Part shown: positions 21,739 to 27,095 of the stretch, piece by piece | How the letters are laid out: every line of letters begins with the position of its first letter | How positions within the stretch are numbered: the first letter of the stretch is position 1 | Assembly: GCA_903831085.1 (NCBI GenBank) | Contig: CAIKWE010000060.1 | Span: 62,001 to 126,000 of the forward strand | DNA length: 64,000 bases | Source: an uncultured Verrucomicrobiota bacterium | GTDB lineage: Bacteria > Verrucomicrobiota > Kiritimatiellia > Kiritimatiellales > Tichowtungiaceae | Direction of reading: 5' to 3' | Program-made: the position numbers and the translations under genes | Notes under the pieces: model-generated | Seen by the model: the letters and a program-made list of their open reading frames with translations, nothing else | Database searches by the model: none | Told to the model about the DNA's origin: nothing

Positions 21739-21804
21739 GGGGCACAAAAGTCTGTTGATTCGCAGGGCGCGGTGGTACAATTTTTAGACAGGTTGAGAAT
21801 TTTT

Positions 21805-22779
21805 ATGCAGAATGAATCATCCATCAAAGTCTGGAGCGAACGCTGGCGGCTCGGTGCGCTGTCCACTCCGGAACTGGTGCAGATCGGACTGATTTCTGTG
21901 ATCATCAGTCTGGTGTTCATGTTGTTCCACATGCTGGGGAACACGGTTGCAAACGTGGGCAGTCGCTCCGCTTTCCAATGGATGTTTGCCCGCTGGCAAG
22001 ACACGATTTCTTTCGGCGCGGACTATTCGCACGGCTATTTCATCCCCTTTGTCAGCCTCGGCGTGATCTGGTATAAGCGGAAAGAAATCTTCTCGGTCGG
22101 CGTGCGCACGGATTCTCGCGGGCTGGCCGTGGTCATCTTTGCGCTGGTGTTGCACTGGCTGGGTGCCAAGATGCAACAGACCCACTTTTCGCTGGCGAGT
22201 CTGGTGCTGCTGATCTGGGGCATTCCATTTTATCTCTTCGGCTGGGAACTGGCCAGAAAGCTTATTTTCCCTTGTTCCTATCTGGTCTTCTGCATCCCGT
22301 TGAACTTCATGGATGTTATGGCATTTCCTTTGCGTATGTTCTCAACCACGCTGGCTACCGGTATGCTGAAAGGTCTCGGTATTGCTGCCGTGCAGTCAGG
22401 AACCGCGATCTTTATTCCATCTATGCCGAGCGGGCTGGATGTCGCCGATCCATGTAGCGGCCTGCGCTCTTTGCTCGCCATGACAGCACTGACCGCCGTC
22501 TACGCATACTTTACTCAGCGCACACTTGTTCGAAAATGGATTCTTTTCATGGCCTCCATTCCGCTGGCGGTTTTCGGTAACATCGCGCGTATTGTTACCA
22601 TTGCTTTCGTGTCTGAGGCGATTGGCGGCAAACTGGCGCTTGGCATCTACCATGATTATTCCGGTTACATCCTTTTCACCGCCTCGATCACCATGATGGT
22701 GATCATTGGCAGTTTGTTGAACCTTGAATTCAGGGAAGTTGTGAAGAAATGCAAATCCGTGCTTTTACGCCGTACCTGA
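21805..22779 (+). CDS. Exosortase (EpsH/XrtA-like membrane transpeptidase)
   Basis: 324 residues from ATG 21805, chosen for the AGGTTGAG upstream; a GTG at 21772 is in frame. About eight membrane helices. The catalytic Cys is in DVADPCSGLRSLLAM, the Arg in FGNIARIVTIA and the His in YHDYSGYILF, the invariant set of exosortases. These enzymes cut PEP-CTERM-type tails and attach the protein to the surface. No PEP-CTERM protein was found in this window. It overlaps the EpsI gene by 31 bases. Confidence 0.9.
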   Translation: MQNESSIKVWSERWRLGALSTPELVQIGLISVIISLVFMLFHMLGNTVANVGSRSAFQWMFARWQDTISFGADYSHGYFIPFVSLGVIWYKRKEIFSVGVRTDSRGLAVVIFALVLHWLGAKMQQTHFSLASLVLLIWGIPFYLFGWELARKLIFPCSYLVFCIPLNFMDVMAFPLRMFSTTLATGMLKGLGIAAVQSGTAIFIPSMPSGLDVADPCSGLRSLLAMTALTAVYAYFTQRTLVRKWILFMASIPLAVFGNIARIVTIAFVSEAIGGKLALGIYHDYSGYILFTASITMMVIIGSLLNLEFREVVKKCKSVLLRRT

Positions 22780-23546
22780 TTCTGATCGGGTTGATGATCA
22801 TCGCCGCGCTGGCTTTAGCGTTCACGGTGGACGTTACGCTTAGTGACAAGGCTGGCGTGCGCATGAAACTGCCTGCCGCACTCGACGGCGGATGGCTCGG
22901 CGACGAACTGCGTTACTCTCATAACGCTGAAAATCCGAAACAGTATCAGGTCAGCCAACTGGAGCTGCCGAACATCGATCCAGTCACTGGCGATAAACTT
23001 TTCACCATGAGCCTGGCCGAATATGACGCGCTTCCGCATGACACGGAATTTTTGAAGTCTATCTATACAAACGAAGCGGCGGCTCAGGTGTTTGTTTCCA
23101 TTGTGCTTTCAGGCCGCGAGCGCGACAGTATCCATCGCCCGGAACGCTGTCTGGTTGGACAGGGCAGCACCATAGTCAACCAGCATTTCTGGAACGTTGT
23201 GATGCCACAGATCATCGAAGTCCCGCTGGAGGGCCGCGAGCCGCTCAAGGTCGCTGTTTTGGAAACCATTCGTAACTATCGCGGTGCCGACGGAGAGCGC
23301 AAAGTCTATTACGGTTACTATGCCTACTGGTTTGTCGGTCAGGGACGCGAAACCCCCAGTCACTACATGCGCATGCTCTGGCTGGCCTGGGATCGCGTTG
23401 TGAACAGCATTTCCCATAAATGGGCCTACGTCGTCGTTGCCGGCGACCGCACGGACGAGAAGTCAAATGCCTACGAACAGCAAATTATCGAATTTGTTCA
23501 GAAGCTTTATCCTCATCTGCTGGTTAACCAGCAGAATGGGGGTTGA
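22749..23546 (+). CDS. EpsI-domain exosortase-associated protein
   Basis: 265 residues: one N-terminal membrane anchor (~8-27), then a periplasmic domain with SIHRPERCLVGQGSTI, the H-x-P-E-x-C-L-x-G signature of EpsI, and YYGYYAYWFVGQG. EpsI proteins nearly always travel with exosortase and exopolysaccharide genes. Function unknown; an accessory of the sorting or secretion machine. Here it is coupled to the exosortase gene by overlap. Confidence 0.88.
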   Translation: MQIRAFTPYLILIGLMIIAALALAFTVDVTLSDKAGVRMKLPAALDGGWLGDELRYSHNAENPKQYQVSQLELPNIDPVTGDKLFTMSLAEYDALPHDTEFLKSIYTNEAAAQVFVSIVLSGRERDSIHRPERCLVGQGSTIVNQHFWNVVMPQIIEVPLEGREPLKVAVLETIRNYRGADGERKVYYGYYAYWFVGQGRETPSHYMRMLWLAWDRVVNSISHKWAYVVVAGDRTDEKSNAYEQQIIEFVQKLYPHLLVNQQNGG

Positions 23547-23571
23547 CAAAACCAGACCCGCACGCTTACCG
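23543..23571 (+). promoter_or_regulatory. Possible promoter of the leu leader
   Basis: TTGACA at 23543-23548 matches a sigma-70 -35 box perfectly. A 17-base spacer leads to TTACCG, a poor -10. It overlaps the EpsI stop codon region and sits ~40 bases before the leader-peptide ATG. Confidence 0.35.
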
Positions 23572-23586
23572 TTCCGCCCGATAACC

Positions 23587-23661
23587 ATGAATAACGTATT
23601 CAACAGCCTTGAACTCCTTCTGCTCGCCGGGGAAACCCTGCGGGAGTTCTGCGCTTGTTGA
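23587..23661 (+). CDS. leuL: leu operon leader peptide (24 aa, Leu-rich)
   Basis: The ORF reads MNNVFNSLELLLLAGETLRE followed by FCAC. Six of 24 residues are Leu, five of them in codons 8-13 (ctt gaa ctc ctt ctg ctc), most using less common Leu codons. It ends 103 bases before leuA and is followed by an intrinsic terminator. A ribosome stalled on the Leu run would leave CTGCGGGAG (23638-23646) free to pair with CTCCGCAG (23694-23701), the left arm of the terminator. A further hairpin CTTGTTG/CAACAAG (23654-23660, 23672-23678) covers the stop codon. The layout is that of a leucine attenuator. Confidence 0.75.
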   Translation: MNNVFNSLELLLLAGETLREFCAC

Positions 23662-23690
23662 TTTGACCCTCCAACAAGAATCTGGCCGAA

Positions 23691-23717
23691 CCTCTCCGCA
23701 GCCCGGAGAGGTTTTTT
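23691..23717 (+). terminator. Attenuator terminator upstream of leuA
   Basis: CCTCTCCG (23691-23698), loop CAGCC, CGGAGAGG (23704-23711), then TTTTTT. AA/TT pairs can extend the stem to 10 bp. It lies 48 bases before the leuA start, and its left arm can pair instead with part of the leader peptide coding region. Confidence 0.85.
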
Positions 23718-23764
23718 ATTTTCATGATGGGTTTAACAGAGAAAAAACTGTAAAGGAAAGAACA

Positions 23765-25447
23765 ATGAAAACACCGAAATACAAAGCCCCTGTGCCGTTC
23801 GAGATGCCGGACCGTGAATGGCCGGCGCGGACACTGTCCTCCAGCCCCGCATGGTGCTCCGTGGATCTGCGCGACGGCAACCAGGCGCTGCCTAATCCGA
23901 TGGACCCCGATCAGAAGCTGGAATACTTCCAGATGCTGTGCCGCATCGGATTCAAAGAGATAGAGGCCGGGTTTCCTTCCGCCAGTCAGGACGACTTTGA
24001 CTTCTTCCGCTGTCTGATCGAAGGGAAGCACATTCCCGACGATGTCTTCATCATGGGGCTGACTCAGTGCCGCCCGCACCTGATCGACCGCACCTTTGAA
24101 GCGTTCAAGGGCGTAAAAAAAGGTATCGTGCACGCCTACATTGCGACCTCTGAACTGCACATGACGAAAGTCTTCGGAACAGATCAGAAAGGCACAATGA
24201 AGTCGGCCGTCGAGGCCACCCACCGCATCCGCGCACTGGCCGACACCATGCCGGAGAGCGACATTCGTTATGAATTCTCGCCCGAGGAATTCACGGACAC
24301 CGACCTGCCGTTCTGTCTGGAAATGTGCAAAGCCGTCTACGAGGCGTGGGGTAAAGCGACGCCCGAAAAACCGATGATCCTGAATCTGCCCGCCACCGTT
24401 GAGCGCAGGCCGCCCAACCACTACGCCGACATGATCGAATGGTTTATCGCAAACTTCCCGCATCGCGACTGCGTGAAGATTTCACTGCACGCCCATAACG
24501 ATCAGGGCATGGCCGTCGCCGCCACCGAACTGGCGATGATGGCCGGCGGCGACCGCGTCGAAGGCACACTGTTCGGACACGGCGAACGCACCGGCAACGT
24601 CGACTTGGTCACCGTGGCCAACAATCTGTTTTCGCGCGGCATCAAATCCGGGCTGGATTTTTCCAGCCTGAACGAAATCGCCGCGACCGTCGAGCGCCTG
24701 ACCGGCATGCCGGTTTACTACCGCCAGCCTTACGCCGGCGAGTATGCCTTCACGGCATTTTCCGGTTCGCATCAGGACGCCATCAACAAAGGTATGCACC
24801 GTTTGGAAGAGGCGGCGAAGGCATTCGGTATGAAGTGGAAAGTGCCGTATCTGCACGTTGACCCCGCCGATCTGGGCCGCAACTTCGAGAAGCTGATCCG
24901 CATTAACTCGCAGTCTGGCAAGGGCGGTATCGCCTGGGTGCTGGAACAGGACTACGGCATTGAAATTCCAAAAGCCATGCAGCCCGAACTGCGCGAAGAG
25001 GTGCAGGTTTACAGCGAAGCCGTCGGACGGGAAGTTTCATCGGAAGAGGTGCACAACGTCTTCCGTGAAAAATTCGTCAACCCGACCGGCCCGTATGAAC
25101 TGATCGGCTATTGGCCGCGGCCCGACGACAAGGATCCGACCTTCATCCACGGCGAAGTCCGCGTCCGCGTTGACGGCAAAGAAAAAACCGCCATTGCCGA
25201 CGGCAACGGGCCGATCTCCGCCTTTGTTCATGCTGTGCGCGGCATCGTCGGCATCGACTTCAGCGTTGACGACTATCACGAACAGGCTGTCGGCAAAGGT
25301 GCCGATGCGCAGGCGCTGGCCTATGTGCCGCTGAAGCTGGAAGGAGACGGCATCGTTTTCGGTGTCGGCTCCGACTCCAACATCGACCAGGCCGCCGTCC
25401 GTGCTATTATCGCCGGGCTGAACCGCATCGCGGGAAAAAAGAAATGA
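23765..25447 (+). CDS. leuA: 2-isopropylmalate synthase (long LeuA type)
   Basis: 560 residues. Start ATG 23765, with AAAGGAAAG upstream. VDLRDGNQALPNPMD is the metal and 2-oxoacid site, GFKEIEAGFP follows, and HAHNDQGMAVAATELAMMAG and HGERTGNVDLVT carry the second metal-ligand set. The last ~130 residues are the LeuA dimer domain (VHAVRGIVGIDFSVDDYHEQ), the leucine-feedback site. It condenses acetyl-CoA with 2-oxoisovalerate, first committed step to leucine. The length matches the yeast/actinobacterial-type family. Expression is probably controlled by the attenuator upstream. It overlaps aroE by 4 bases. Confidence 0.95.
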   Translation: MKTPKYKAPVPFEMPDREWPARTLSSSPAWCSVDLRDGNQALPNPMDPDQKLEYFQMLCRIGFKEIEAGFPSASQDDFDFFRCLIEGKHIPDDVFIMGLTQCRPHLIDRTFEAFKGVKKGIVHAYIATSELHMTKVFGTDQKGTMKSAVEATHRIRALADTMPESDIRYEFSPEEFTDTDLPFCLEMCKAVYEAWGKATPEKPMILNLPATVERRPPNHYADMIEWFIANFPHRDCVKISLHAHNDQGMAVAATELAMMAGGDRVEGTLFGHGERTGNVDLVTVANNLFSRGIKSGLDFSSLNEIAATVERLTGMPVYYRQPYAGEYAFTAFSGSHQDAINKGMHRLEEAAKAFGMKWKVPYLHVDPADLGRNFEKLIRINSQSGKGGIAWVLEQDYGIEIPKAMQPELREEVQVYSEAVGREVSSEEVHNVFREKFVNPTGPYELIGYWPRPDDKDPTFIHGEVRVRVDGKEKTAIADGNGPISAFVHAVRGIVGIDFSVDDYHEQAVGKGADAQALAYVPLKLEGDGIVFGVGSDSNIDQAAVRAIIAGLNRIAGKKK

Positions 25448-26289
25448 AAAAACTGGCAGTCCTCGGACATCCCATCGGCCACACACTGTCGCCCGTCATG
25501 CACAACGCCTCCATCAAGGCGCTGGGGCTCATGGACGAGTATGAATACGGCAAACTCGATGTCCCGCCCGGCGAACTGATGGCGCGGCTCGCGAAGTTTC
25601 CGTCCGAAGGCTACGCCGGCGTCAACCTGACGATTCCTCTGAAGGAAGTCGCGTACCAAGGTCTAAAGCAACTGGCGGACAGTGCCCGGATTCTCGGCGC
25701 GGTCAACACCGTTGAATTCACCGGCGGCGGAATGGTTGGCCACAACACCGACGGCTACGGCTTTCTCAAAGCGCTCGAAGAAGCCTTTGGTAAAACCGTT
25801 CAGAGCGATTCCGTTTTCGTACTCGGTTGCGGCGGGGCAGGGCGTGCCGTCGCGCTCATGGCCGCGCTCAACGGCGCGAAGTCGCTGACGCTGGCCGATG
25901 TGGATGCCGCACGCGTTGCCAACCTGACGGCGGAAATCAAGAATGTCGCGCCGAAGGTCGGGATTTTCCAGTGCTTGGAAAAGACGGAACAAATCAAAGC
26001 CTGCCGCGAAGCCGATCTCGTCATTCAAGCCTCGCCGGTCGGTATGAAAAAAGAAGACCCCTCGCTTCTGCCGAAAGAGGCCTTTCGCCAAGGACAGCGC
26101 GTTTTTGATTTGATTTACATGTATCCCGAAACCGCCTTCCTCAGCACCGCCAAAGCCTGCGGCGCGCAGATTGCGAACGGCCTCGGCATGCTGTTGCATC
26201 AGGGCGCGAAAGCTTTCGAAATCTGGACGGGAATCAAACCAAGTGTTGAAGCGATGCGCAACGCATTGGAAAAGGCGGTATACTCATGA
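25444..26289 (+). CDS. aroE: Shikimate dehydrogenase
   Basis: 281 residues. LGHPIGHTLSPVMHN is the shikimate site and NLTIPLKE has the catalytic Lys; ILGAVNTVEF and GHNTDGYGF follow. VLGCGGAGRAVALMAA binds NADP. NGLGMLLHQGAKAFEIWTG closes the protein. It reduces 3-dehydroshikimate to shikimate with NADPH in aromatic amino acid synthesis. The start overlaps leuA (ATGA). A one-mismatch palindrome at 25966 (FQCLEK) lies in a variable region. Confidence 0.95.
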   Translation: MKKLAVLGHPIGHTLSPVMHNASIKALGLMDEYEYGKLDVPPGELMARLAKFPSEGYAGVNLTIPLKEVAYQGLKQLADSARILGAVNTVEFTGGGMVGHNTDGYGFLKALEEAFGKTVQSDSVFVLGCGGAGRAVALMAALNGAKSLTLADVDAARVANLTAEIKNVAPKVGIFQCLEKTEQIKACREADLVIQASPVGMKKEDPSLLPKEAFRQGQRVFDLIYMYPETAFLSTAKACGAQIANGLGMLLHQGAKAFEIWTGIKPSVEAMRNALEKAVYS

Positions 26290-27095
26290 TGGTATTCTGG
26301 ATGATTTACTGGTCGACGCTTATCTTCGCTCTGGGTCTCTGCTTTGGCAGTTTCCTCAACGTATGCATCTGGCGCATTCCGAAAGAAAAATCCGTTGCTT
26401 GGCCGCCGTCGGCCTGCCCGAAATGCGGAACCCGCATCAAAGGATACGATAATATTCCGGTGCTGAGCTGGCTTCTGCTCCGGGGGAAATGCCGCAGTTG
26501 CAAAGCGCCGATTTCCGTCGGCTATCCGCTGATCGAACTGCTCACAGGGCTTTTCTTTCTCACCATCTGGCTTATCTATGGAGTCAGCCCGAAAACGCCC
26601 ATCTATATGCTCGCCGTCTTTGGTCTTCTGCTCGGCACCTTCATCGACCTCGAAGAAATGTGGCTTCCTGACCGCGTCACCATTGGCGGCATGATTCTTT
26701 TTCCGCTGCTCAGTATGGCGGCGCCCGAGCTGCATGGCACCGTCGGGTGGTTCGCCGGCCTCAAGGCTTCTCTGATCGGACTTGCCGCCGGGTTCGGGCT
26801 TTTCTGGGCAATTCGTGCACTGGGAACCGCCGCGCTCAAAAAGGAGGCGATGGGATGCGGTGATCTCAAATTGATGGGAATGCTGGGCGCGCTGCTTGGC
26901 TGGCAGGCGGTGATTTACATCACCTTCTTTTCTGCGCTGGCTGGCGCCGTCATCGGCACGGGCTTAATCGTCATGAAGAAAAAAGAACTCTCGAGCCAGA
27001 TTCCCTACGGGCCTTACATCGCGCTCGCCGCCTTCTCCTGGATGCTCGGCGGCGACCGTCTCTGGAACATCTATCTCAACCTCGTGGGCTTTTAA
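26286..27095 (+). CDS. pilD: Type 4 prepilin peptidase / N-methyltransferase (A24A)
   Basis: 269 residues, about seven membrane helices. N-terminal GSFLNVCIWRIP, then the zinc-type CPKCG...CRSCK pairs (~44-74) of bifunctional PilD. The two catalytic aspartates are in GTFIDLEEMWLPD and GCGDLKLMG. It cleaves and methylates type IV prepilins or pseudopilins. No pilin gene is nearby. Four-base overlap with aroE. Confidence 0.92.
   Translation: MMVFWMIYWSTLIFALGLCFGSFLNVCIWRIPKEKSVAWPPSACPKCGTRIKGYDNIPVLSWLLLRGKCRSCKAPISVGYPLIELLTGLFFLTIWLIYGVSPKTPIYMLAVFGLLLGTFIDLEEMWLPDRVTIGGMILFPLLSMAAPELHGTVGWFAGLKASLIGLAAGFGLFWAIRALGTAALKKEAMGCGDLKLMGMLGALLGWQAVIYITFFSALAGAVIGTGLIVMKKKELSSQIPYGPYIALAAFSWMLGGDRLWNIYLNLVGF

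Follow-up and report, generated by a model that had tools for sequence, protein, structure and literature searches.

The question raised by this locus is whether the leucine-rich short ORF upstream of leuA in the window (the whole stretch of 64,000 nucleotides that was analysed) belongs to a transcription attenuator, and how far such an element extends among related bacteria. In enterobacteria, leuA is preceded by a short leader ORF containing a Leu run, in which rare Leu codons act as control codons; the leader RNA can form three alternative pairings and ends in an intrinsic terminator. The closest named relatives of the source genome of the window are Kiritimatiellales/Pontiellaceae MAGs (Kiritimatiellota in NCBI taxonomy). 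Based on sequence, conservation, compensatory changes in the terminator and position-dependent folding, the element is very probably a ribosome-mediated transcription attenuator of the leu/trp type that controls leuA, and probably also aroE and a prepilin peptidase gene; from the same evidence we infer the transcription start, the translation of the leader and a response to leucine in vivo.

Directly 5' of the attenuator region lie an exosortase gene and, after it, an EpsI-like/DUF3485 gene (together 21772-23546). The second of them, assigned by domain matches as an exosortase-associated DUF3485/EpsI-like gene (22749-23546), ends with a stop codon at 23544-23546. The gene presumed to be controlled, leuA (2-isopropylmalate synthase, 560 aa, 23765-25447, plus strand; NCBIfam NF002991, E = 3.5e-215), is followed on the same strand by aroE (25444-26289; TIGR00507, E = 1.3e-64) and a type IV prepilin peptidase gene (26286-27095; Peptidase_A24). 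Because aroE overlaps the end of leuA by 4 bp and the prepilin peptidase gene overlaps the end of aroE by another 4 bp, the three genes probably form one transcription unit. Between the terminator and the start of leuA, GGTTTAA.AGAGAAAAAACAGTAAAGGAA is strongly conserved in the genus (window 23730-23764).

The leader ORF, MNNVFNSLELLLLAGETLREFCAC, occupies 23587-23661 on the plus strand (24 codons, starting with ATG and ending with TGA at 23659-23661) and is conserved in 27 aligned loci. Its Leu residues fall at codons 8, 10, 11, 12, 13 and 18 (6 of 24 codons), with the run at codons 10-13; these positions and the stop at 23659 agree exactly with the sequence-only reading of this DNA. Downstream, the RNA can adopt three mutually exclusive pairings (1:2, 2:3 and 3:4) that end in an intrinsic terminator before leuA. 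Segment 1 (23611-23627, plus strand) consists of GAACTCC (23611-23617) and CTCGC (23623-23627), within and at the end of the Leu run, and pairs with segment 2, CTGCGGGAGTTC (23638-23649, plus strand), as a protector. Alternatively, segment 2 forms the antiterminator with segment 3, GAACCTCTCCGCAG (23688-23701, plus strand), a helix of 12 bp enclosing a local hairpin (CTTGTTG 23654-23660/CAACAAG 23672-23678, plus strand) that, according to folding, overlaps the stop codon of the leader and is nested inside the antiterminator. Segment 3 supplies the left arm of the terminator together with loop bases, and segment 4 with the T run, CGGAGAGGTTTTTT (23704-23717, plus strand), supplies the right arm and the U tract. 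The terminator (23688-23698/23704-23714) was the minimum free energy (MFE) structure when the RNA from the stop region was folded alone; its stem, put at 8-10 bp with six T by the sequence-only reading, is 11 bp (6 G-C), and the T run lies at 23712-23717. The pairing previously proposed between CTGCGGGAG (23638-23646) and CTCCGCAG (23694-23701) does form, as part of the longer antiterminator helix. In this way, the 2:3 and 3:4 pairings of the switch had been recognized from the sequence, and the protector 1:2 and the hairpin at the stop codon had been missed. With the ribosome stalled and segment 4 not yet made, the RNA folds with the 2:3 antiterminator as its MFE structure (-22.7 kcal/mol).

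These pairings suggest the following course of events. Transcription would begin at the leader ATG or just before it. With plentiful charged tRNA-Leu, the ribosome should reach the stop at 23659 and cover segment 2 and part of the local hairpin, so that segment 3 would pair with segment 4 and RNA polymerase would stop at the T run. When leucine is short, the ribosome is expected to wait on Leu codons 10-13 and cover segment 1, which would let segment 2 pair with segment 3 over 12 bp before segment 4 is made; with this antiterminator in place no terminator would form and leuA would be transcribed. An untranslated leader would leave segment 2 held by segment 1, making termination the default. 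No matching conserved leaders were found before ilvB and trpE in the order, so that among the operons checked the attenuator is specific to leucine synthesis.

The dependence on ribosome position was calculated by a scan in which only RNA at least 12 nt beyond the first base of the A-site codon was exposed, and the probability that upstream RNA occupies segment 3 was recorded. In the window, this antiterminator probability was 0.81 with the A site at codons 10-14, a plateau that coincides with the Leu run; it fell to 0.40 at codon 16 and 0.24 at Leu18, and from codon 19 up to the stop it stayed at 0.09-0.12. The scan thus bears out the earlier proposal that a ribosome stalled on the Leu run frees segment 2 and one at the stop covers it (0.81 vs. 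about 0.1). It does not bear out Leu18 as an effective control codon, since its value of 0.24 against 0.81 at codons 10-13 places it outside the stall window. All 27 loci had a high antiterminator probability at the Leu run and a lower one at the stop. In the scan, the means over 8 genus and 18 sister-family leaders were 0.80-0.82 on the Leu run and 0.08-0.17 at the stop; the values calculated for the separate states of each locus gave stall/stop means of 0.81/0.21 in the genus and 0.82/0.08 in the sister family. As a control, leaders encoding the same peptide were recoded with synonymous codons drawn from window-gene usage (n = 200). The stalled antiterminator observed in the window was reached by 1% of the recodings and the observed switch by none; the median proportion reaching the observed stalled value was 1% in the genus and 7% in the sister family. 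The 135-nt leader also folds more stably than its dinucleotide shuffles (z = -3.4), and together with the 1% of 200 recodings this argues that the leader pairings are beyond chance. In the full-length RNA at thermodynamic equilibrium, the terminator usually prevails whatever the state (0.93 even when stalled); the switch must therefore be kinetic and decided during transcription, which is normal for attenuators. Termination by default varies among loci, since eight of the sister family had a high antiterminator value also without a ribosome (0.63-0.96).

A covariance model of the element (R1) matched 31 of the 43 genomes of the order, with one match in each save for two weak extra ones. Elsewhere in the class it gave nothing credible, including two matches at E near 0.005. 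The 27 distinct leaders that were aligned comprise nine genus sequences (M...FNSLELLLLAGETLREFCAC) and 18 sister-family sequences (MKNEFNNLLLGLLLLAGNDPAEAVCL type). Among the nine genus sequences, 11 of the 12 positions of segment 2 are invariant. In codons 14-24 of the genus leaders, nine of ten columns with an invariant amino acid also have an identical codon, compared with 78 of 375 in leuA of the same genomes; such near freezing of synonymous sites indicates that the RNA itself is constrained. The terminator in the sister family shows two-sided changes at three pairs, and 1 of 500 shuffles reached its covariation score. Antiterminator pairs in that family are kept in 87% of cells, compared with 33-60% for slid versions, and the sister-family counterpart of the local hairpin is GGTTG..CAACC. 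The comparison of relatives recommended by the sequence-only reading thus came out in its favour, with a conserved Leu leader, conserved competing stems and a conserved terminator with compensatory changes; the antiterminator helix in the sister family carries one-sided changes only and no two-sided compensatory change. Support for this helix accordingly comes from its conservation, from the recoding tests and from the differing yet complementary sequences of other clades: between the two families it differs and yet stays complementary (GCGG-GAG/CUC-U-CCGC in one, GCGG-AGG/CCU-CCGC in the other).

Codon choice within the leaders is also distinctive. In the genus, CTA makes up 0.8% of the Leu codons of the counted genes, most of them leuA, and 15% of those of the leaders (about 20-fold enrichment); the corresponding figures in the sister family are 0.5% and 41% (about 80-fold). 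Control codons read by a scarce tRNA would be expected to show such a bias; where its relatives use CTA, the window leader has CTG. Among the counted genes, Leu is most often encoded by CTG in the genus (61%) and by CTC in the sister family (52%), a marked difference between sister families.

Comparison of relatives also revealed a predicted sigma-70-type promoter (23543-23572, plus strand), composed of TTGACA (23543-23548), an 18-nt spacer and TACCGT (23567-23572), whose -35 box overlaps the stop codon of the upstream EpsI-like gene in the window. TTGACA is present in 24 of the 27 aligned loci, 23 of which also have a 17-18 nt spacer and TAnnnT. This promoter is visible only by comparing relatives: a generic promoter scan of the window listed no promoter, because the -10 box is weak. 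The distance from the end of the -10 box to the leader ATG is exactly 10 nt in 17 of 18 sister-family loci and 9-14 nt in the genus members, which places the predicted transcript start 0-8 nt before the ATG. Additionally, no Shine-Dalgarno-like tetramer was found in any aligned leader of the order. With a -10 box about 10 nt from the ATG and no Shine-Dalgarno site, the leader ORF is probably leaderless or nearly so. Comparable starts have been described for the Corynebacterium glutamicum ilvBNC transcript, which begins one base before the leader ATG (PMC11857589), and for the Sinorhizobium meliloti trpL transcript, which begins at the leader ATG (PMC7298713). Like the window leader, both are translated from transcripts starting at or one base before the ATG; they differ in serving other amino acids in other phyla, and the start site in the window is a predicted one.

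It could be argued that the leader ORF is incidental, and that the hairpin is a plain intergenic terminator of the upstream exosortase/EpsI-like operon, with leuA transcribed from its own promoter. The stop codon of the upstream gene does lie just before the region (23544-23546), the terminator is strong, and sister-family loci (L021, L029, L016, L017 and others) carry a further conserved element, GGGGTTGTTTAGATTAnGCCCC, in single copy, which could be a promoter and sits just 5' of the leuA Shine-Dalgarno site in the last 60 bases before leuA. Three sister-family genomes have a cupin-like gene before leuA: in two of them (L065, L066) an intact attenuator is located 5' of that gene, and in the third the contig ends before the attenuator region. 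The GGGGTTGTTTAGATTAnGCCCC element is kept even where the cupin-like gene separates the attenuator from leuA. Possible readings of this element are a second promoter that bypasses the attenuator (TGGA, 17 nt, TAGATT) and a hairpin whose loop is conserved. However, an incidental leader leaves unexplained the conserved Leu run and its enrichment in rare codons, the frozen synonymous sites over segment 2 and the fixed spacing from promoter to ATG, and we consider this account very unlikely.

Because the covariance model did not reach beyond the order, leuA upstream regions were read directly for the wider survey. Among 40 such regions from other families of the phylum, nine contained a short ORF starting with ATG and having at least five Leu in ten residues, compared with one on the opposite strand and an average of 0.45 (maximum 2) in shuffles. 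A profile that is on at the Leu codons and off after them was obtained for several leaders of other families, such as MPGQRRLSSLQSLLPLLGGGGCGAS (L104), MKVFVQYQLRLSRLLPVLLRG (L109, with a T8 terminator) and MNRNAGQLLRYLLLSLCELLLRTGRPQGFGA (L121), as well as for four Phycisphaerae leaders of the MIRQRNSLGLLLPLGLLLR type (L048, L050, L052 and L056). L126 and L099 showed no clean stall/stop switch in silico and are regarded as attenuator candidates only. The Leu-containing short ORFs of L131 and L100 were set aside, having no further support. The leaders are not obviously alignable between clades and may therefore have arisen repeatedly. There is roughly an even chance that leuA leader-peptide attenuation is widespread and repeatedly re-invented in Verrucomicrobiota and Phycisphaerae; on this reading, the ORF would be leaderless in the order studied, the clades would have unrelated leader sequences, and some Phycisphaerae would use an output other than intrinsic termination.

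The last point concerns L048, L050 and L052, which have a terminal hairpin of at least 16 bp near the leuA start and no clear T run, so that their output may differ from intrinsic termination. These three loci favour the alternative that the leader controls leuA translation or Rho-dependent termination. For the order itself this is likewise very unlikely, since the window and all 27 aligned loci have a hairpin followed by 5-8 T, located tens to hundreds of bases 5' of the leuA Shine-Dalgarno site and not including it. A leucine riboswitch, a T-box or a protein-binding RNA element in place of ribosome stalling has next to no chance of being right: some unpaired bases around segment 2 are conserved, but codons and stems explain the conserved positions, leaders in other clades agree in the Leu run and the pairing logic and not in sequence, and no match was found among 4227 Rfam families at the gathering threshold (T-box and known riboswitch models included), nor a credible one at the relaxed threshold. 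The Leucine operon leader (RF00512) was matched neither at its gathering threshold nor among the five matches at E up to 10; matches to rnk_pseudo and Phe_leader, far below their gathering scores and located on the terminator, were rejected.

The attenuator in the window is thus compared with leuL (RF00512), which is grouped with trp, his, ilv, thr and phe, the other classical ribosome-mediated attenuators. The two are alike in the ORF with a Leu run, the three pairings and the terminator before leuA, and relatives of the window element likewise use rare Leu codons as control codons. They differ in that the window element has no sequence match to leuL, carries an extra hairpin nested in the antiterminator and is probably leaderless, and in that its leuA is followed by aroE and the prepilin peptidase gene and not by leuBCD. 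The branched-chain operon of Staphylococcus aureus has a leucine-rich attenuator (PMC5794164), similar in its Leu-rich leader peptide controlling branched-chain amino acid genes and different in phylum and operon. The actinobacterial LEU element also has a Leu-rich upstream ORF before leuA; unlike the window element, it is a predicted pseudoknot, in which the stem at the base joins the Leu codons to the Shine-Dalgarno site of leuA. No intrinsic-terminator switch is described for it, and the effects of mutations were at odds with classical attenuation (PMC1262725). The sequence-only reading was therefore too strong in counting some actinobacteria among the groups with established leu leader attenuation.

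A 2010 survey of premature terminators listed leader-peptide systems as known only in Proteobacteria and Actinobacteria, and added Firmicutes (PMC2965389). Our literature search, which covered few subscription papers, found no report of leader-peptide attenuation for Verrucomicrobiota, Kiritimatiellota or Planctomycetota, and priority is not certain. The mechanism is of a known kind, namely leu-type ribosome-mediated attenuation, and its presence in this lineage appears unreported. The sequence-only reading had called the finding unexpected there; this is fair insofar as the element seems undescribed in the lineage, yet similar leaders recur across the phylum. We rate the interest of the element as moderate: the mechanism is ordinary, and the taxonomic breadth and the predicted leaderless leader are the notable parts. 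A textbook regulatory mechanism is extended to a largely uncultured phylum, a predicted leucine-responsive element with a covariance model is now at hand, and an attenuator implies coupling of transcription and translation in these bacteria, with leaderless translation predicted.

Intact, altered and lost attenuators also provide a natural series for studying the origin of such switches. In one genus member (L067) the element is lost and leuA directly follows the EpsI-like gene. In the sister family, L020 (G041) has seemingly lost its Leu codons (MEEETCL) and kept the terminator, and represents a natural broken attenuator or an assembly error. In another genus member, L012 (G010), a stop codon occurs right after the Leu run and segment 2, although untranslated, is unchanged save for one base, which supports selection at the RNA level.
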